DNA of 64,000 nt from Sinohyriopsis cumingii (taxonomy: Eukaryota > Mollusca > Bivalvia > Unionida > Unionidae). Below, piece by piece: positions 15,700-42,525 of this stretch. Below the pieces are notes generated by a model. It had not been told where the DNA came from. It ran no database searches and worked only from the letters and a program-made list of their open reading frames with translations. The stretch spans positions 2,383,501 through 2,447,500 of the forward strand of contig JAPYKE020000263.1 in NCBI GenBank assembly GCA_028554795.2. The letters are read 5' to 3'. Numbering within the stretch: the stretch's first letter is position 1; every line of letters starts with the position of its first letter. A program made the position numbers and the translations under genes.

Positions 15700-16953
15700 T
15701 GGCTGGATCTAGTGCGACTTCATCCTCTGTGCCTAAGTCTGATATAATTAGAGTAGAAGTTATGTTAGTAGATATTATTACTGAACTCAATCTGCCTATT
15801 AGCGCATTTGAATCAATATCAAATGCTTTTAAAATTATGTTTAGTGACTCTGACATTGCTAAATAATTTCATTGTGGCAGATCAAAAGGAACTGCTATTG
15901 TTGAAGAAATAGCAGCAAGTACTACATTACAATTAGCTGGAAGAATGCGTAATTGCCCATTCACTGTTTCTACAGATGAAAGCAGTGATCAAGGAAACTT
16001 CAAGATCTTTCCTCATGTTATCAGATCTGTTGATCCATTATCATCATCGGTAACATCAGACATTCTTTCAATCCCTGTTTGTGAAGACAGTGCAACAGGT
16101 GAAGCAATATTCAATCTGATACAGAATGAATTGCAAGTTCATGACATTCCTTGGAAGAATTGCTGGGCCCTTGGGTCTAACAGTGCCACTGTGATGGTTG
16201 TGAAGGACAGAGGAGTATATGGGTTTATGATTAAAGAGCAACCCAATTTATATCTTTCAGGCTGTGTGTATCACCTGATACATATAGCTGCATGTCTGCC
16301 ACTTAATGTTCATCAGCTTTTTATATATATTATTATTTGGACAAATGCAGTAAATGGCAAGCAGTGTTCAAAGATATGCAGGTTCTACATGTTACCAAGG
16401 AAATACAATTCTAAAATGTTTCAACTAGATGGCTAAGCATCAACAGGTGCTTACAAAGTCTTCTGGGACAACTGGGATGATTTATTAAGGCATACTAAAA
16501 TGTTGGATCCAGCATTGCATCTGAAAAGCTAAAATGGCATCTTTGGATTATTTCTTTGAAAGATTTTCAGTATTATTACCCAAGGAAGTGACTGTAACAG
16601 ATGTGAAATTGAAAATGGCAATTTATCAGTCCACAGATAATCAGTCATGTCTGAGAAACAGAATTGATGAAACCTGGGTTGCTGTCGGTCAGATGAAGCA
16701 AGATCGAACAGTGGTCTTCAAAATATTGTCAAAAATAATGCTTTCATTAATGACAATGTCTCATTCTTCTGCACACTTTGAGCGAGTTTTCTCTCTAGTG
16801 AGAAAAAAAGTCAGAGTTCAGGAGTAAATTGTTTGCAGAAACTGTAGGGCACATTTAATTTCAAAATGTAGACTAGGGTCAGCTACCAACAGGATCTACA
16901 CTGAACATGAGCTGCAGGGCCTGAAAAGTGCTTACTATAGCCACTTAGCATGA
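15700..16953 (+). pseudogene. hAT transposase, inactivated
   Basis: Three colinear plus-strand blocks match a hAT (ZBED-like) transposase. The first (about 15,710-15,944) has CGRSKGTAIVEEIA and one internal stop at 15,864. The second (15,945-16,436) has FTVSTDESSDQGN around the first catalytic-region Asp, then CWALGSNSATVMV and GCVYHLIHIAA. The third (16,534-16,953) carries the C-terminal dimerisation signature SSAHFERVFSLVRKKVR, followed after an in-frame TAA (16,825) by a continuing CRAHLISKCRLGS reading. Stops and missing middle sequence make it nonfunctional. I did not find terminal inverted repeats or an 8-bp duplication. It may also be a decayed domesticated copy. Confidence 0.75.
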
Positions 16954-22029: not shown

Positions 22030-23552
22030 CTCGTGAATGTGATCACTTTGTCTTTGTGTCTCAGTTCAGTGGGCAATTCATTCCACTTTGCTGGGCCTTT
22101 TTATGCAAAAGAATGCTGTCCATATGACTTTGTTTTCATAGTGGGAATAATGATTATAGGATTGTCAGAAGAGGGGCGTAAGTATCTTGCTGGTGTGTAC
22201 ACATGGGTGAGGTCAGATAGGTATGTTGGACCAAAGTCCGACAGTGAAACGTAGAACAGAGAACAAATTTTATTTTTGATTCTGGATTGAATGGATAGCC
22301 AGTGTAGGGTACAGAGCAGTGGGGAGGTGTGATCTGATCATGGTGCTCAAGGTATGATCAGAGCAGCTGTGTTTTGAACATTTTGAAGTTTCTGGAGTAG
22401 ATATTGAGATGAACCAGACATAATTGAGTTACAATAGTCAAGTCTTGAATGTACTAATGAACATACAAGTGTTTTAGTGGCATCATTGTAACTGAAAGAT
22501 ATTTGCGAATTGAGCTGATGCATCTCAGCTCAAGATATGCAGACTTGCATATGTTCATTACATGTTGGTGCAGTGTGAGAGTACTGTCCAGAGTAACACC
22601 TAGGTTTCATACTGATTGTGTGAATTTAATGTTGGTGCTGCTGATATTTACTGTTTGAGGTAAAGGATGTGAATGAGAAAGTCTTTGTGTTGTGATCAGA
22701 ATGGCCTCAGTTTTATCATCATTCATCTGCAGCTTGTTAAATGTCACCCATGATTTCACATCAGAAATGCACCTCTCTGCACCTTGGATGGTAGCATCAA
22801 CTTCAGTTGGGTGGCTAGATTTATATATTTGGGTGTCATCAGCATACAATTGGTGAGACACTGCATGATGATCTATGACACTTGAGAGCGACTGAGTGTA
22901 CAGAATGAAGAGAACCGGTCCATGAACAGACCGCTGTGGAACACCACAACATAGATCAACTGGGCTGGAGTGTATTCCATTTGCAGATATAATTTGTGTC
23001 CTGTTGACCAAGTAGGACTTGAACCACAGTATATCTGTATCATGAATGCCAAATACATGTTGGAGACGGTGAAGTAATATATCATGGTATATTATGTCAA
23101 ATGCTGTTGACAAATCAAGGAGGGTGAGTACTGTAATCTTTCCGCTATCCAAAACAGAGAGAATGTCATTAGTTACTTTTAGAAGAGTATTGTCAGTACT
23201 GTGGCAAGGGTGATATGCAGATTGTACATTGCTAAAAAGACTGTTTGAATTTAGATGAGATACAAGCTGGGACAGAAGAACCTTTTCTAAGATTTTTTAT
23301 ATGAATGGGAGATTAGAAACTGGGCGGTAATTCTTTAAATCGTTATGGTCTAGTGTTGGTTTCTTCATCAGTCTTTACAATGGCAGTTTTGAAAAATGAT
23401 GGGAATTCCCCGGATGAGAGAGAGGTATTGATAACATCAGTTAGTGAAGGCAATACTGGATCTAAGGACTGAAGCAGCAGTGATGTTGGAATTGGATCAA
23501 GTTCAGATAACTTTGGTGAACTCTTCATCACGTTCGTACGTACAAAATCCAT
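22030..23552 (-). pseudogene. Reverse transcriptase of LINE copy 1
   Basis: The minus-strand reading shows RT blocks in order: an N-terminal palm segment (23,552-23,343) ending in a frameshift before the NYRPVS-like region, then ITVLTLLDLSTAFDIIYHD (fingers/palm, block A), CCGVPQRSVHGPVLFILYTQ (block B) and QLYADDTQIY (catalytic YADD, intact). Then LQMNDDKTEAILI and a thumb region follow. The C-terminal tail with ELPTELRHKDK and ALKTHLFRL lies at about 22,080-21,990, with frame breaks between. R replaces G in the usual PQGS motif, and several frameshifts make it inactive. Confidence 0.85.
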
Positions 23553-26866: not shown

Positions 26867-28356
26867 TGTGTCTAAGTTCAGTGGGCAATTCATTCCACGT
26901 TGCTGGGTCCTGGTACGCAAAAGAACGCTGTCCATAGGACTTTGTTTTTTTATTGGGTAAAATGAGTATACGATTGTCAGGAGAGTAGCATAAGTATCTT
27001 GCTGGTGTGTACACATGGGTGAGGTCGGATAGGTATGTTGGACTGGAGTCCGTCAGTACAACGTAGCACAGAGAACAAATTTTGTGTTTGATTCTGGATT
27101 GAATGGATAGCCAGTCTAGGGTACAGAGCAGTGGGGAGGTGTGCTCTGATCATGGTAAGTATGATCCATGCAGCTGTGTTTGAAATTTTTGAAGTTTCTG
27201 GAGTAGATATTGAGATGAACCAGACAGAATTGAGGTACAATAGTGCAGTCTTGAATGTACCAATGAACACAAGTTTTTTAGTGGCATCAGCTGAAAGATA
27301 TTTGTGAATGGAGCTGATGCGTTTCAGCTCAAAATATGCAGCCTTGCATATGTTCATGACATGTTGGTGCAGTGTGAGAGTACTGTCCAGAGTAACACCT
27401 AGGTTCCGTACTGATTGTGTGAATTTAATGTTGGTGTTGCTGATATTTATTGTTTGAGGTAAAGGATGTGAATGAGAAAGTCTTTGTGTTGTGATCAGAA
27501 TGACCTCAGTTTTATCATCATTCATCTGCAGTTTGTTACATGTCATCCATGATTTCACATCAGAAATGCACCTCTCTACACCTTGGCCAGTAGCATCAAC
27601 TTCAGTTGGGTGGCTAGATTTGTATATTTGGATGTCTTCAGCATACAGTTGGTGAGACACTGGATGATGATCTATGACAATTGAGAGCGGCTGAGTGTAT
27701 AGAATGAAACAAACAAGTCCATGAACAGACCCCTGTGGAACACCACAACATTGATCAACTGGGCTGGAGTGTATTCCATTTGCAGACACAATTTGTGTCC
27801 TGTTGACCAAGTAGGTCTTGAACCACAGTAAGGCTGTATCATGAATGCCAAAAACATGCTGGAGAGAGTGAAGTAATATATCATGGTCTATTGTGTCAAA
27901 TGCCACAGACAAATCAAAGAGGGTGAGGACTGTAATCTTTCCGCTATCCAAAGCAGAGAGAATGTCATTAACTACTTTTAGAAGAGTATTGTCAGTACTG
28001 TGGCAAGGGCGATATGCAGATTGTACGTTGCTAAAAAGACTGTTTGAATTTAGATGAGATACAAGCTGGGACAGAAGAACCTTTTCTAAGATTTTTTATA
28101 TGAATGGGAGATTAGAAACTGGGTGGTAGTTCTTTAAATCGTTATGGTCTAGTGTTGGTTTCTTCATCAGAGTCTTTACAATGGCAGTTTTGAAAAAGGA
28201 TATGAATTCCCCTGATGAAAGAGCGGTAACAATAACATCAGTGAATCTATACTGGATCTAAGCACTCAAGCAGCAGTGATGTTGGAATTGGATCAAGTTC
28301 ACATGACTTTGGAGCACTTGTCATCAGGATTGTACGTACGAAATCCATAGAGACAG
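26867..28356 (-). mobile_element. LINE copy 2, 3' half (RT region)
   Basis: It is colinear with LINE copy 1 and related to it at high identity by eye. The 3' end is lost: after ELPTELRHKA the minus-strand reading runs into the adjacent 2.88-kb repeat, whereas copy 1 continues through its C-terminus and tail. At 28,356 it is interrupted by element A and resumes at 37,940. Confidence 0.85.
26977..27951 (-). pseudogene. Reverse transcriptase of LINE copy 2
   Basis: A 324-codon minus-strand open stretch carries LFDLSVAFDTIDHDILLH (block A), CCGVPQGSVHG (intact PQGS), QLYAEDIQIY, LQMNDDKTEVIL, NLGVTLDSTLTLHQHV and a long thumb segment. An overlapping frame (27,014-26,867) continues with YGQRSFAYQDPATWNELPTE, the usual C-terminal LINE signature, so there is one frameshift near 27,000. 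The catalytic YADD is YAED here, a substitution of a metal-binding Asp that should abolish polymerase activity. The upstream palm and endonuclease parts are displaced to 37,940-39,103 by element A. Confidence 0.9.
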
Positions 28357-30515: not shown

Positions 30516-30525
30516 GGGGGTGGGG
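30516..30525. repeat. Left 10-bp target-site duplication of element C
   Basis: GGGGGTGGGG directly abuts the left terminus and is identical to 36,403-36,412. The motif is low in complexity, which weakens but does not remove the evidence. Confidence 0.75.
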
Positions 30526-31059
30526 TAGACCAGCAAGTTGTTCTCCACCTTTTTTTTTTATTCTTTGACTGGCGGCGGAGACCAACGTTGCTCTGCACCA
30601 GTCGTGCTGAGACGTCCGAGCTATGTCACCTCGGATGATCGGACCGCGCGCTATTAATTAATAAATTTATTTAGACAAAACTTTGTATCCAGACGGTAAG
30701 TATAATCCCTCTTCTAATGATCCACAGCGTTAAATCCTTTAGAACACACACTTTTTTAGTATAAATCCCTGTGAGAACAGAACACCTGTGTATTCATCGG
30801 CTGTTGACCTCAGATTTGAATTACACACGCATGCGTGTAAAGCAGCATCACCACGAGGTAAGAGTAACGCGTGAAAACCGTCTAGCGAGGCGTAGATCAC
30901 TAGGAATTTACTGATGCTTGGGTGGGAAATGTGTCGTTACGGCAGAAATTTAGGAGATAGAGAGAGAGAGACTTCATGTCAGAAATGTGAGATAGAGTGA
31001 ATGATAAATAAATTGTAAAACGACTACAAACTGTATTCAGATGTGAAAATATGCTACAC

Positions 31060-31092
<33 letters not shown>

Positions 31093-31375
31093 TTATTATT
31101 ATTACTAGTGGTAGTATCTTCAATCATATTTAATAACATTTACAATGGTATAAATGGATTTTATGACATACATACATATCTACATATTAATACTTTACAT
31201 TGCTTATAAGAAGAACATGATTATTATGATGAATATTATTAATAACATTTGCAATGGTATTTATGAATACATACATACATACATGCATACATACATTACT
31301 TAACATTACTTATAACATTATTAGCATGATGAACTTTATTAATAACATTTACAATGGTATTTATGAATACAAACA

Positions 31376-31409
<34 letters not shown>

Positions 31410-31500
31410 CGTCTGTTATAATTTTACACCATAACTTATAACATCTGGATAATGTTATATTTTAATCAAAAACAATAGTTTCTTCTTCCCTTCTGATCAC
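30526..31500 (+). repeat. Left terminal inverted repeat of element C
   Basis: It pairs with about 35,468-36,402 in inverted orientation. It includes poly-T, the AAT microsatellite at 31,061-31,092 and ATAC/ACAT-type microsatellites at 31,170-31,405, all mirrored in the right arm with length differences. Its inner end covers the last codons of the helicase reading. Confidence 0.9.
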
Positions 31501-31957
31501 TGCATTGACAAGTGTTGCAACAATTTACATAACAGTTGCATTTGCCGCAAGAGCATATATTGCAACTTCCCGCGGAACATTCTTTTAGGCCAGCGGGAAG
31601 TTTATCCATTTCGGGGATCCACAATGCCTCAAGAATTTTTCTTCTTAAACAGACTTGACGATTTTTCGCAACTTCTATCATGTTTTCATCTGTTGTCGTC
31701 ATCATGCTTGTCATGTAAGGTAGGAGACAAGCATAACCTTTTCTCCCATCTCTGGCACATCTCCCATCTCTTGCCAATAGCTCAGAATGCTCTTTGGGCA
31801 TCCCCAAAGAATAACGATATCTACATCGCTAGTTTGGATCCCCATTCCGAATGCTACCGTAGCAACAAGACAGCGAATTATGCTTTCGGGTCTTCGAAAT
31901 TCCTTGATAATTCTGTCCCGTGTCTCTTTATCCGTGGAAGAATGATACATTTCAATA
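31466..31957 (-). pseudogene. RecQ-like SF2 helicase, C-terminal part, frameshifted
   Basis: The minus strand from an acceptor (TATAGTCAG, next to 31,957) reads MYHSSTDKETRDRIIKEF, then IRCLVATVAFGMGIQ (motif V region), DVDIVILWGCPKSILSYWQE (motif Va and the start of motif VI) and, after a single frameshift near 31,780, RCARDGRKGYACLLPY (rest of motif VI with its arginine finger region). A cysteine-rich C-terminus follows (CSAGSCNICSCGKCNC), comparable in place to the RecQ zinc-binding region. The N-terminal ATPase half (Walker A, DEAH) is absent. This family would unwind DNA using ATP. In an element it could aid excision or replication, but that role is inference. Confidence 0.85.
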
Positions 31958-32154
31958 CTGACTATAAATCATAGTACAGTGAATCACGGACATATATTAA
32001 ACACAGCATTTAATTAGTTTCTTAAATTTCACACCATAAATAGGCTATACTATTTGCTGGAACAATGTTGGTCGACAGTTAAAGGCAAAGCATCATACTA
32101 GGAACCATGGCAACAAGTACATGATTTGGGCCTTAGCATATATAGCAAAGAACA

Positions 32155-34157
32155 GTGAACACCATAATGTACAAGGAGGCCTCTGATGTGAGAAGAGCTG
32201 TAGATCTACCAATGTCCACTTATTTTCCTTCTCGAGAGGAGATACAAGCGACCAGGGATAGAATGGAAGCTGTGATGTCTCGAATCCTGACTGAAAATGT
32301 CCCATGCCTCTATCCACTGGCGGACCTTGTTTGTCATCATATTGATCACAAACATTGGTCCAAATCAAGGCGGAAAAGTGAAGTAGTATGTACTTGCCTG
32401 ATATTTATACTAAATGCCATTCTCCTATCACGATAATAACAATGATCTCATTCAAACGATGTACTGTTCGTTGTATTGATGTATGTTCAACATTGTTATG
32501 CTAGTGCCTACGATTTGTCCGTGTTTTGGATTAAACGTTTACATGAAGCAGTTTAAACAAATGTACTTTTACGATCTGAGGCGATATGTGTGCACTTAGT
32601 TTTAGATTTGAATTGTTTTTCTTTTCTTACTCTAACAGGTTGAAAAGTAAGAGAATGTGCGTTTTTATTTTGTGGCAAAAATACAACAATAGCAAGTTGA
32701 GAAAATTATTTTTTGTCTCAAACGCTTTAACTGCATACTCTATTATAATTAAACTGTGTTCCATTTCACAGTTTAATATTGGTGTGATCCCAGAAAATCC
32801 TTCAACAACCGCAGGTGTTATTAGGATGCTGGAGCGGCTGCATGATTATGTTCCAAGAAGAGATGATAATCATGTGTATCCCATAGTGTGCTGGGGGGAT
32901 GGCCTGTCTTGTGAAAGACACATAGATGCTCAAAATGCAAGATCCAATGCTGGGAATCCTGTACAAAGATTGGAGGGCTTGGTGCCATCACCTGGAGAAT
33001 TTCACAAAAGAATACTACTGCTTCAGGTAAAATAATACACATCTATAGCTTGTTTTGTACAGCTTTATGATGGAAATTCTATTGTTTCAAAATTATCCGT
33101 ATTCTGTTTTTTTGCACAAGTGATAAACATCAGTACCAATGTGCCTCACTTAGTCAAAATCAGTATCAATGGTCATATTGACGTACTTAGAATTTTTTTT
33201 CATATTCTCATTTTTATGTAAGATACATGTGTTTTCATTTCCAGACGAAGAATGGTTTTGCTCTGAAAATTGCAAAATGATATCAAGAAGGAAATCTAAG
33301 AAAAGGAAGAGCAAGAAAGACTCTGTAAGTGAAAAGGCTGCTGACCGTAAATTCGAGTATACAAAGACGATTCTCATCCGAGGGATGGAAGATAAAGTAA
33401 GAAGAGATGCTGTCAGAGAAAATGATGGCCCATCAATGGTGTCCTTTTGGAAGCAAGACACGGTCAAATTCCACAACAATAACCACAGAAGATACTTTAT
33501 CCTGGGGCACAATCTAATTACAAGTAAGCCATGTAATATTTGTTTCAGAGCATTAATGTATTTATATGTTAATTAGGTCAAGCTAACTCCATCTAACATC
33601 TATGAAGGAACAACCTATATTGAAGACTTTTATTACTGTAATTATTCTATATTAGTTCATTATCCCAGCGACTATAAAGAACAAAATGGTTATCCATGAC
33701 AAAACACATACAAGAAAAATCCACTAAATGCTTACTTGTTCATAATGTAATTTTAAAAAAAATTCCTGCTTTATATTTTTTGGGGTCCTTTTTTGCCGTA
33801 CTTAGTGTTTGCTTTAGAGTTACTGTACAAAAAATATTAAAATGTCATGTGAAAATAAATTATAAAAGTTATTACAAGTGTTTAGTTGGATGTTACAAAA
33901 GTTCCACAGTAAAGATTGTATCGATTCATTTATTTAAAAACAAGTCACCTATATTTAATATAATTTTGGAACATCAAGGAAGTGACAGCTGAATACCCAT
34001 TAGGACCAGGGCGGGCGCCAAACCCAACCAGACTATCTGGCGCCCTAGGCAAGGTTAGATTCTGGCGCCGCCCTCCCCCCCCCAAAAAAAATATATCAAT
34101 TTCAACATTTATAAACAATTATACAAAAAATAAAAAAAATGCGCCCTCTGAAATCAG

Positions 34158-34193
<36 letters not shown>

Positions 34194-35027
34194 CGCCGGC
34201 CCTGATTAGGACTACATCAGAATCATCAGATGCATATATCAAATATTCTGAAGAAAATAGTTTTAATTTAGTGTGATCATTCTGCGGTAGTATATAACAT
34301 CTTTATTTCATTTGTGGGTCAGTAACAGTAAATTTGTATAAGAATCGGTTAAACAACGAGAAAACTGTCCTAAGTAACAAAGCAATTTAAATTCTTGCAG
34401 ACTTATCTGGGTGCGTATCAGAGAGAATGCAGCAAGACTTGATGTGGAACAGAACAGTTAATCTTCGAGGAGGTGCCAGAAACAATGATGAGGTTGACCT
34501 AGTCAATGAATATTTGAACAAGGAGTTCAAAGGTAAATCATTTGATAACGGAATTATAATTAATCGTTTTAAACTAGAAGAATTTTGTTTTATAAATATA
34601 TGAAGTCTTAGTATATGCAGTATTTTGTAATTCGTGGAAATACGAGTTTAACATGATTTCTTGGTGTCTAATATATTATGTGTTCATTAATTTGAAAACT
34701 ATCACATAATGTTAATTTTGGAGGTTAAAATAGTAATGCTGACTTTTTATTATCTTTATAGAAAGCTTACGATCGGCCAGTCATCAGCTGAGTGACGCCA
34801 CTTTGGACAGGCATAGCAAGTTGGCTGGTGGGGTTGGCCATGCTCTAGATAAAATATACTCTACAACAGTCTCCGAATTGGAAAGTTTCCAGACAGGAAA
34901 ATCAAAGTTTTCACGAAGAAAGGAAATTGAGACTTTTGTCAGAGTACTGAAGGACGAGAAACTCTTATCAGAATTTCCGCTCATTAGCAAGAATAAAGAA
35001 CCCAGACATATACATCTCGGAAATTAA
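32155..35027 (+). pseudogene. DUF6589-like multi-exon gene of element C, incomplete
   Basis: Supported exons: 32,155-32,385 (start uncertain; donor GTATGT), 32,772-33,026, 33,245-33,523, 34,401-34,532 and 34,762-35,027 (ends in TAA). Exon 1 has PMSTYFPSREEIQATRDRM and LADLVCHHIDHKHWSKS. Exon 2 has GVIPENPSTTAG, WGDGLSCERHIDAQNAR and RLEGLVPSPGEFHKRILLLQ, the region I recognise as DUF6589-like. Exon 3 opens with DEEWFCSENC, like the end of a PHD finger, and then is lysine/arginine rich. Exon 4 has NRTVNLRGGARNNDEVDLVN; exon 5 has HQLSDATLDRHSKLAGGVGH. Phases agree between exons 1-2, 3-4 and 4-5, but exon 2 (phase 0) does not fit exon 3, so at least one exon is missing. Transposase role is inferred from context. 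Confidence 0.75.
33999..34212. mobile_element. hAT-type MITE with perfect 8-bp duplication
   Basis: A 198-bp element (34,007-34,204) begins CAGGGCGGGCGCC and ends GGTAGCGCCGGCCCTG, imperfect inverted termini in CAGGGC. ATTAGGAC flanks it on both sides (33,999-34,006 and 34,205-34,212), an exact 8-bp duplication typical of hAT. Internal GCGCCCTAGGC words and an A-rich middle resemble a MITE widespread in animals (from memory). It lies in the intron between exons 3 and 4 of the element C gene. Confidence 0.9.
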
Positions 35028-35334
35028 CAAATTATCATGCAAATTTGACAAAAGTAACAAAATTATCGCTAGCTCACATGTCAATTTATAATGTATGTAT
35101 GTATGTATTAATAAAGTTCATCATACTAATCATGTTATAAGTAACGATTTGTTGCACGAGGGATTAAAGTATGAAGGAGAAAGGTTTACATGTGCAGTCA
35201 AAACAGGAAATGGGGAAGTGAGTCGGATGTACATGGTTTGATACCAGCAGTGCGGGGGAATATTTCATATGAAAAGGATCGTTATTATTATTATTCTTTT
35301 ATTTTAGAACATACAGTGCTGTATTTATTGTTTG

Positions 35335-35470
35335 GTCATGGTTGGTTGAAGAAATGGGAGACCAAGTATACCGAGGCGAAAAATCAGCAAAGACACGTTT
35401 GATTGAAAAGTATCATTCCTCCACGGATCAAGAGACATAGGACAGAATTATCAAGGAATTTTGAAGACCA
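35335..35470 (+). pseudogene. Second helicase fragment, mirrored in right arm of element C
   Basis: The plus strand reads EEMGDQVYRGEKSAKTRL, then IEKYHSSTDQET, a stop, DRIIKEF, a stop and RP. It is related to the left-arm helicase at 31,957-31,860 but in mirror orientation. It then jumps to the VRREEET reading of the TIR inner end, so about 370 bp of helicase sequence present in the left arm is missing. Here the coding continues upstream of the IEKYHSS segment without the intron boundary seen in the left arm. Confidence 0.75.
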
Positions 35471-36402
35471 GTGGTCAGAAGGGAAGAAGAAACTATTGTT
35501 TTTGATTAAAATATAACATTATCCATATGTTACAAGTTATGGTGTATAATTATAACAGACGTATATATGTATGTATGTATGTATGTTTGTATTCATAAAT
35601 ACCATTGTAAATGTTATTAATAAAGTTCATCATGCTAATCATGTTATAAGTAATGTTAAGTAATGTATGTATGTATTCATAAATACCATTGCAAATGTTA
35701 TTAATAATATTCATCATAATAATCATGTTCTTCTTATAAGTAATGTAAAGTATTAATATGTAGATATGTATGTATGTCATAAAATCCATTTATACCATTG
35801 TAAATGTTATTAAATATGATTGAAGATACTACCACTAGTAATAATAATAAATTATTATTATTATTATTATTGTGTAGCATATTTTCACATCTGAATACAG
35901 TTTGTAGTCGTTTTACAATTTATTTATCATTCACTCTATCTCACATTTCTGACATGAAGTCTCTCTCTCTCTATCTCCTAAATTTCTGCCGTAACGACAC
36001 AGTTCCCACCCAAGCATCAGTAAATTCCTAGTGATCTACGCCTCGCTAGACGGTTTTCACGCGTTACTCTTATCTCATGGTGATGCTGCTTTACACGCAT
36101 GCGTGGGTAATTCAAATCTGAGGTCAACAGCCGATGAATACACAGGTGTTCTGTTCTGACAGGGATTTATACTAATAAAGTGTGTGTTCTAAAGGATTTA
36201 ACGCTGTGGATCATTAGAAGAGGGATTATACTTACCGTCTGGATACAAAGGTTAGTCTAAATAAATTTATTAATTAATAGCGTGCGGTCCGATCATCCGA
36301 GGTGACATAGCTCGGACGTCTCAGCACGACTGGTGCAGAACAACGTTGGTCTCCGCCGCCAGTCAAAGAAAAAAAAAAGGTGGAGAACAACTTGCTGGTC
36401 TA
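35468..36402 (-). repeat. Right terminal inverted repeat of element C
   Basis: It is the inverted counterpart of 30,526-31,500, including the mirrored AAT and tetranucleotide microsatellites and the terminal GGTCTA at 36,397-36,402. Confidence 0.9.
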
Positions 36403-36412
36403 GGGGGTGGGG
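36403..36412. repeat. Right 10-bp target-site duplication of element C
   Basis: GGGGGTGGGG, identical to 30,516-30,525, directly abuts the right terminus. Confidence 0.75.
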
Positions 36413-40505: not shown

Positions 40506-42525
40506 ACAGTCAATGTCAAAATATTTTCTGATAAAGGTATCGTTTCAAGTGAATAAATTTACACTAAAAACGCATGAAATGAGAAATAAATAAAATTTAA
40601 AACTGACAAACAAATAAATTGATATAAATATATATGAAATCAGATAGAATTGAATCAAATAGACATAACAAGTACTTTTGAAGAAGGAGAAAGAACCACA
40701 ATGGATTTACAAACAAATATCAGATCCAGTATTCATAGTTTTTGTTAAAATATTGTATTCATACTTCTGAAAACAAAATTATATGGCCAAAAAGTTATAG
40801 ATATTTCAAACATTAAATGTCAATCACATTTATATTTAAAAAGGTATTTCAATGACTTAACATGCAAATTCATTTCTAGTTTGTTCCTTGACCGTTTTAA
40901 CACCCTGAATATTGTTTCACTGCACATTTAAATTGCTATTTTAAAATAGTTTCTTTTTCATTTCTTTCAGTTACCATAATGATTTTCTCTAGTGTTAAAA
41001 TTCTCTCCCTTGTACTGGGAGTTTATGCCGTTGTTTTTAAGGTTCTAGTTGTTAACATTATTAGTCCTCAATAGTAAGAACAGCTCTAATGATGGTTTTG
41101 ATCAAGCTTTGGGGAAACTTCGAATATATATAAATGTACACTGTACATATAAAAATGAATGACATAAAAAGACAACTACCACATCCACAAACAAAATCAT
41201 TAACTCAGAGACTCGTCAGTGGCGTAATTTACAGATAATATACATCGATGAACTCTATAAAGAAAGGATGTAACCGACTGCACCAACTTTAACTGATGAC
41301 TTGATGTGTGGAATGTGATTAATCTAACATCGGGAAAAAAAAGGATCACACAACCCAATTATTTAGCAATATCAATCAAATCCAGGAAACAATAATTACT
41401 TGCTGGTTACTCGTTCACCCGAAGTTAATATGGTTTAACTCCAAAGACAAACTATGTACACAAATACCTGCTTGTCTTTGGCACTGAAAGGGTAGTTCGT
41501 GACACGTACTTTAGTCTGGTTTATAGTCTATACAACAAATCATACTAAATACTTGACCTGCCAAACTGCATTCTCTTTCAAGATTGTTAGAAAAATTAGT
41601 TATTTTTCTGCCTTTTTATTCTCTTTTTCAGATGAATGTATTACTGTTTAGACCAATTAACAGAAAAGTTCAAGATATATTACTTACCACCTGTTTTGTG
41701 AAGGATATCATGAAAAAGAAGAAAATAACAAGAATTCAATAATATGATACTGATTAATATCATAAATAGGAACATACTAATATCATTTGTTGTAAAATTA
41801 AAAATACATAAAACATTTACTAAATACATTTATCCTCCATCACAATCAAAAAATTTCTTCCTTAGCAATCAACAAGTTATACATGGCTAAATCTCTTTCG
41901 TTACATATCTTACATTACAGCAAACTTGTTAGCTTATACTAGGACAATGAAAGACTTTGATACATATATCTATGAAGGATGTATGAATGTTTATGTACAT
42001 ACATGCATGCAACCATGTTGAGATGAATTTAAGTATGTACCCCTGCATTTTGTAAAAATTCTCAATGAATTTAAAAGGAAAATGAGTTATATTTTGCAAA
42101 TGAATCTATATCTTCCATACAGTTTTCATACAATTCTGGACAGTATTCAGTTTTGGGAATGAATTCAAATAGAATTAGGAAAAAACTTCAAAAATTCAAG
42201 TTATTTGCAAGTAGTTAGATATCCACAAAACCCTACAATTCTGATGCATAGATGAATAAATGAATATTTAAATGGAAGCGAAATCTCAAAGAAAGATTAA
42301 AGAAGATCAAACTTTTTGGAGGTAGTTGGCATTACACTGCCCAATTGGAATTTAAATCATACTTTCATGGATACAAGAGAAACTGACAAAAAATATAGTA
42401 AAGGATGCTAATATTACATTGCTGGGGAAAAACCAAAACCAACTGAAGACAAGGTAAAAGCTGTCTTGAGAGACTGCTCCATCTCGAAACACAATAGGTT
42501 CTCTCAAGAGATGTGGCTTTTTATT
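40506..42525 (-). repeat. Inverted-border copy of the 2.88-kb repeat, reverse arm
   Basis: From AAAATATTTTCTGATAAAGG onward the sequence is the reverse complement of the unit. 41,135-42,525 pairs with 39,104-40,505 as a long inverted repeat around about 0.63 kb of further reversed unit sequence. It stops near AGAGATGTGGC, just past the stem-loop. Confidence 0.8.

Follow-up and report, generated by a model that had tools for sequence, protein, structure and literature searches.

A helicase-bearing DNA transposon of probable AcademH type in the bivalve Sinohyriopsis cumingii, with a DUF6589 gene predicted to encode its transposase

We analysed a stretch of 64,000 bp from Sinohyriopsis cumingii (contig JAPYKE020000263.1, positions 2,383,501 to 2,447,500; hereafter the window, whose coordinates are used throughout) and found in it a transposon copy of 5,877 bp, at 30526-36402, in which the remnant of a helicase gene is combined with a gene of the DUF6589 family. 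We consider it very likely that this copy is inactivated and non-autonomous and belongs to the AcademH type of DNA transposon, an assignment made by comparing duplication length, helicase, DDE core and host range with published descriptions. With somewhat greater confidence still, on the strength of conserved residues and a modelled fold, we propose that the DUF6589 protein is a DDE transposase. Pfam lists DUF6589 as a family of unknown function; a literature search found DUF6589 mentioned nowhere and returned one unrelated match for PF20231.

The element starts at 30526 with TAGACCAGCAAG, the reverse complement of which finishes at 36402, giving the termini TAGACC...GGTCTA. Its inverted arms, of 977 and 934 nucleotides (30526-31502 against 36402-35469), are 94.0% identical by BLAST and 98.3% identical gap-free, with 918 matches, 16 mismatches and 43 gap columns in the alignment. 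Identical 10-bp sequences, GGGGGTGGGG, flank the two ends and form the sole exact 10-mer match at the element's spacing among 58,103 window positions tested, against a background of 9 such matches per 3,050,047 sampled pairs. Given this uniqueness and the low background rate, we reject a chance origin of the flanking repeat. The inverted TAGACC ends, the inverted repeats of about 0.95 kb and the 10-bp duplication described in an earlier note on this DNA are thus all borne out. Inverted homology extends past 0.95 kb, since the right arm holds a second helicase fragment: a 68-bp helicase-coding stretch beyond the matched arms recurs there in inverted orientation, so that the right arm resembles a left arm with an internal deletion. 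The features that define the ends are as follows.

30516-30525, plus strand: left copy of the target-site duplication, GGGGGTGGGG, identical to 36403-36412
30526-31502, plus strand: left terminal inverted arm, beginning TAGACC, with internal tandem units of about 100 bp and microsatellites
31889-31956, plus strand: segment coding for helicase, which recurs in inverted orientation at 35402-35469 (91% identity)
About 35294-35469, plus strand: second piece of helicase sequence, lying in the right arm, with an internal deletion and stop codons (tblastn to P0032)
35469-36402, minus strand: right terminal inverted arm, finishing GGTCTA
36403-36412, plus strand: right copy of the target-site duplication

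For comparison, 29 stretches (L009-L037) were taken from the window's genome, a 2.9-Gb assembly; related proteins are cited by P numbers. The coding features of the window copy are listed below.

31466-31968, minus strand: helicase remnant with part of Helicase_C and a Cys-rich C-terminus, one frame change (Pfam; tblastn to P0034 and P0031)
31957-32039, no strand: interval from the helicase remnant to exon 1, where we place an internal deletion common to 16 distinct insertions
32040-32385, plus strand: exon 1 remnant (tblastn to P0003), one frame break near 32150
32061-32063, plus strand: first catalytic position, AAC (Asn) where Asp is otherwise invariant
32772-33026, plus strand: exon 2, DUF6589 profile positions 66-150, closing in phase 0 (Pfam, expect value [E] 5.5e-9)
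32898-32900, plus strand: second catalytic Asp codon, GAT, within GDGLSCER
33245-33523, plus strand: exon 3, encoding the end of PHD finger 2 with the helical region after it, requiring phase 1
34401-34532, plus strand: exon 4, NRTVN..DLVNE
34508-34510, plus strand: catalytic Glu codon, GAA
34762-35025, plus strand: exon 5, C-terminus

These five exon-like blocks, with DUF6589 matched by Pfam in exon 2 (exon 1 fell below the cut-off and gave no match), agree with the five-exon plus-strand gene that the earlier note had described, and the minus-strand helicase remnant it had read is likewise recovered, with a Pfam match to Helicase_C (E 6.9e-13). Exon 1 reaches further upstream than that reading, to about 32040, and includes the first catalytic position. 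Its frame break is absent from other copies, where exon 1 lies in one open frame. The junction of exons 2 and 3 is broken by the mismatch of phase 0 with the required phase 1, which other copies show to be due to the loss of exons between 33026 and 33245. In L020, L027 and L028, two extra exons stand between exons 2 and 3 of the window copy, covering the stretch after the second catalytic Asp and two PHD fingers; the two-PHD exon occurs without its partner at 13 further loci (including L010 and L011, which are one insertion). Of the PHD fingers, the window copy retains only the final part of the second, in exon 3. With Asn at the first catalytic position, a frame break and missing exons, the window copy is, judging by these defects, dead.

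The helicase remnant lacks the N-terminal motor motifs. Among the best 120 of 217 matches listed, helicase relatives P0030-P0035 scored 153-115 bits, the five with names coming from bivalves and Ptychodera, and the next matches scored at most 55 bits and were mainly RecQ, from bacteria or from sources without a name. No RecQ zinc-binding or HRDC model was found in P0030-P0035, either in precomputed annotation or on rescanning P0030, P0032 and P0033. One helicase locus in the window's genome is 86% identical to the Sinanodonta protein, in keeping with a bivalve host.

An arm search of the genome, in which the best 40 candidates were scored, gave at least 75 matches. Among the results that would refute its reading, the earlier note had named copies with different ends and helicase and DUF6589 genes that prove to be unrelated neighbours; we observed neither. 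Of 18 two-ended copies, the window's included, 17 have TAG...CTA termini; the exception is L035/L036, with CTG at its right end (L036), and a few others carry single changes further inside. Seventeen two-ended elements were read whole (15 distinct insertions, L009 and L011 being among the 17); in every one, an inverted match runs from base 1 of both ends and helicase and DUF6589 sequence occur together. Every one of the 16 distinct two-ended insertions has a duplication, 9 bp long in 7 and 10 bp in 9. This count omits the duplicated loci L009 (the window's site) and L011 (L010's site), as well as L024, L025, L027, L028, L032, L033 and L037, which have one end only in the stretch; it includes L035/L036, of which the outer 10 kb on each side was read and which stands outside the 17 whole-read elements. 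By tblastn, both genes are present in L025, L027, L028 (an inverted duplicate of L031), L032 and L033, with no helicase found in L024, L035 or L037 and no DUF6589 in L035, L036 or L037.

Three of these loci deserve mention in their own right. The ends of L035/L036, which share a 10-bp duplication, are separated by 36 kb, possibly with large nested insertions between them. L009 and the window copy are the same insertion, present twice with its flanks on contig C263 at about 99% identity, as a segmental or assembly duplicate. At L020:1768-4221, five tandem copies of a helicase exon piece stand within one arm, at 0.57-0.58 kb spacing; such a piece has thus come to form part of the arms.

Kolobok elements duplicate TTAA, a duplication seen in none of the 16 insertions, whose 9-10 bp duplications have no fixed sequence; on this ground we reject a KolobokH element, and consider it extremely improbable that the two genes belong to a Kolobok with a DDE transposase and a RecQ helicase. 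The likeness lies in that pairing of genes: in the available excerpt of PMC9587614, a RecQ helicase is described both for KolobokH and for one Kolobok from a red alga, which has it on the complementary strand, but KolobokH is reported from fungi only.

It is also scarcely credible that the helicase and DUF6589 genes are unrelated neighbours or nested elements. The second, partial helicase in the right arm and the helicase loci without DUF6589 (the L038 core, L039 and L036) would suit such a history, but each of the 17 whole-read elements has both genes inside one pair of terminal repeats, and the 212-bp segment that joins the helicase remnant to exon 1 (31889-32100) is contiguous in the window and in 17 of the 29 loci (two of them duplicated loci), that is, in 16 distinct insertions. 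Since these 16 share one ancestor, independent support for linkage comes from the fuller copies L027, L028 and L031, and from Mizuhopecten, for which one contig, of 365,016 bases, is given as the longest for both P0015 (DUF6589) and P0033 (helicase), a match that suggests the two genes are linked there.

We infer that the 16 insertions go back to a single internal deletion, in which the two head-to-head genes would have lost their starts. More of the helicase survives in L028 and L031, where it likewise faces the transposase gene, but exon 1 is missing from both. At the first catalytic codon, 12 distinct insertions have AAC (Asn) and 6 have GAC (Asp); the junction is present in 11 of the 12 (L024 being the exception) and in five of the 6, the other being L027. 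This codon is the sole position in a 351-nucleotide alignment that is fixed in the Asn group yet absent from the Asp group; trees of the 351-nucleotide stretch and of the arms were unrooted and poorly resolved. Asn is the derived state, since all 28 relatives have Asp at this position. Most simply, Asn would have arisen once, in a copy that later multiplied with a disabled transposase, and such spread implies enzymes supplied from elsewhere, in trans. The window copy, a member of this Asn group and by our reading a descendant of the deletion derivative without both gene starts, most likely moved on enzymes made elsewhere too. Alternatively, the first Asp might be dispensable for activity, a view that is hard to square with its invariance in the relatives.

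The proposal that the DUF6589 protein is the transposase, already made in the earlier note, gains support from two sources, the invariance of its acidic residues (D in 28 of 28 relatives, D in 34 of 34 and E in 30 of 30) and its predicted fold, in which these three residues take the positions expected of an RNase H core. The P0003 model was used; in that of P0012 (predicted local distance difference test score 69) the second D and the E fell in low-confidence stretches. Foldseek alone returned nothing at E <= 0.001, with high probability for PHD fingers only, and sequence searches of the PDB matched the PHD fingers and not the catalytic core. VIA re-alignment of the Foldseek candidates gave the P element, Hermes and ISCth4 transposases as the best large structural matches, with middling Z scores. 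The modelled core aligns with P element and Hermes over 269-288 residues and appears, like theirs, to be an RNase H core in which a long insertion precedes the final acidic residue; unlike in theirs, the interruption holds PHD fingers. These matches also favour a rival reading, in which a transposon from another superfamily (P/hAT/MuDR-like or unnamed) carries a helicase and has converged on AcademH features. P element and hAT duplications are 8 bp, against 9-10 bp here. The second D is followed in DUF6589 by a conserved QxxH, with Q and H nearly invariant, which resembles the C/DxxH of P, hAT, MuDR, Kolobok and Dada, and IS256 and MuDR duplications span 4-10 bp (available excerpt of PMC10045372). 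Set against this, a helicase and 9-10 bp duplications are paired in AcademH alone among the groups described in the excerpts of the cited papers, and we regard convergence from another superfamily as unlikely.

AcademH is thus the assignment we retain, as the earlier note had suggested in calling the element a member or relative of that lineage, because both the 9-10 bp duplications and the helicase fit. A helicase-carrying transposon of this kind is already known: in the available excerpts, AcademH is a helicase-encoding DNA transposon of animals and fungi (PMC10045372, PMC10799480), with helicases described in fungi (PMC10799480), and its duplications of 9 or 10 bp, against 3 or 4 bp in AcademX, are related to the presence of a helicase versus a nuclease (PMC10045372). 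The element shares with AcademH these duplications, an internal superfamily 2 (SF2) helicase, terminal inverted repeats and, by prediction, a DDD/E transposase. AcademX would belong to the same superfamily if Academ membership holds, but the 9-10 bp duplications do not fit it, and no nuclease family was matched by Pfam in ten window frames scanned, the copy being incomplete. A literature search gave nothing useful on a PHD finger with a transposase, or on Academ with XPG.

A first search for relatives of the DUF6589 protein brought up 29 proteins, those with a host name being from bivalves, Priapulus and a sea star. A last search (with A3) listed 16, including 8 not met before (P0150-P0157); some of the 16 bore no name, and no fungal name was among them. 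The DUF6589 alignment found no relatives in viral and prokaryote contigs. In Potamilus streckersoni, a predicted transporter gene model (P0028) opens with part of a DUF6589 C-terminus, 71-80% identical to exons 4-5 of the window copy; this is a transposon remnant that a host gene captured or that annotation placed within one. The window's genome holds more than one helicase-bearing family, since a second element, at L038:1667-8248 and apparently recent, has 384-bp arms (99.5% identical), TAGGCC...GGCCTA ends and a 9-bp duplication, TACAAAATC, and four further loci share its helicase score. It carries helicase exons from motif I through the C-terminus and, of a P0012-like protein, the N-terminal cysteine finger alone, at marginal significance (E 0.009), with no DUF6589 core inside.

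Elsewhere in the window, 43600-64000 is a tandem array of about seven copies of a 2.88-kb unit, mostly 97-99% alike, with an inverted partial unit at 40506-42518 (94%) and no reading frame above 100 amino acids in the unit examined. Two minus-strand reverse-transcriptase readings (22607-23296 and 26977-28095) match RVT_1 at E of about 7e-23 and are about 90% alike as DNA. A plus-strand frame of 189 amino acids (15867-16436) resembles a hAT/ZBED-type transposase by eye, with no Pfam match; Pfam matched none of 3 of the 5 other window frames.

In fuller copies, long inverted repeats enclose two genes head to head, one for a RecQ-like SF2 helicase and one for the transposase. The transposase, with D, D and E on an RNase H core and tandem PHD fingers before the E, would bind both ends, cut them and insert them into target DNA at a stagger of 9-10 bp, while the helicase may open or remodel DNA during excision or insertion. 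The fingers lie between the second D and the E, and the second is ING/YNG1-like: that of L028 matches YNG1 at E 2.7e-10, and the PHD of a relative matches the fold of ING PHDs in its predicted structure. Here such fingers sit inside a transposase, an unexpected chromatin-reader-like insert in a catalytic region. The ING-like finger may anchor the complex on nucleosomes methylated at histone H3 lysine 4 (H3K4). It is possible, if doubtful, that the finger directs insertion by H3K4 methylation. Equally tentative is a joint scenario in which an ING-type PHD reads H3K4-methylated tails and steers insertion to active promoters, a RecQ-like helicase melts about one helical turn to give the 9-10 bp duplication, and the Asp-less subfamily multiplied on borrowed machinery.

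These results suggest a function for DUF6589, as a DDE transposase core belonging to a transposon that carries a helicase and makes 9-10 bp duplications. They also provide a directly testable case in which the catalytic region of a transposase includes a histone-reader-like domain, with a bearing on how transposons choose their targets, and the Asp-to-Asn change common to 12 insertions provides a clean natural case of passengers apparently mobilised in trans.
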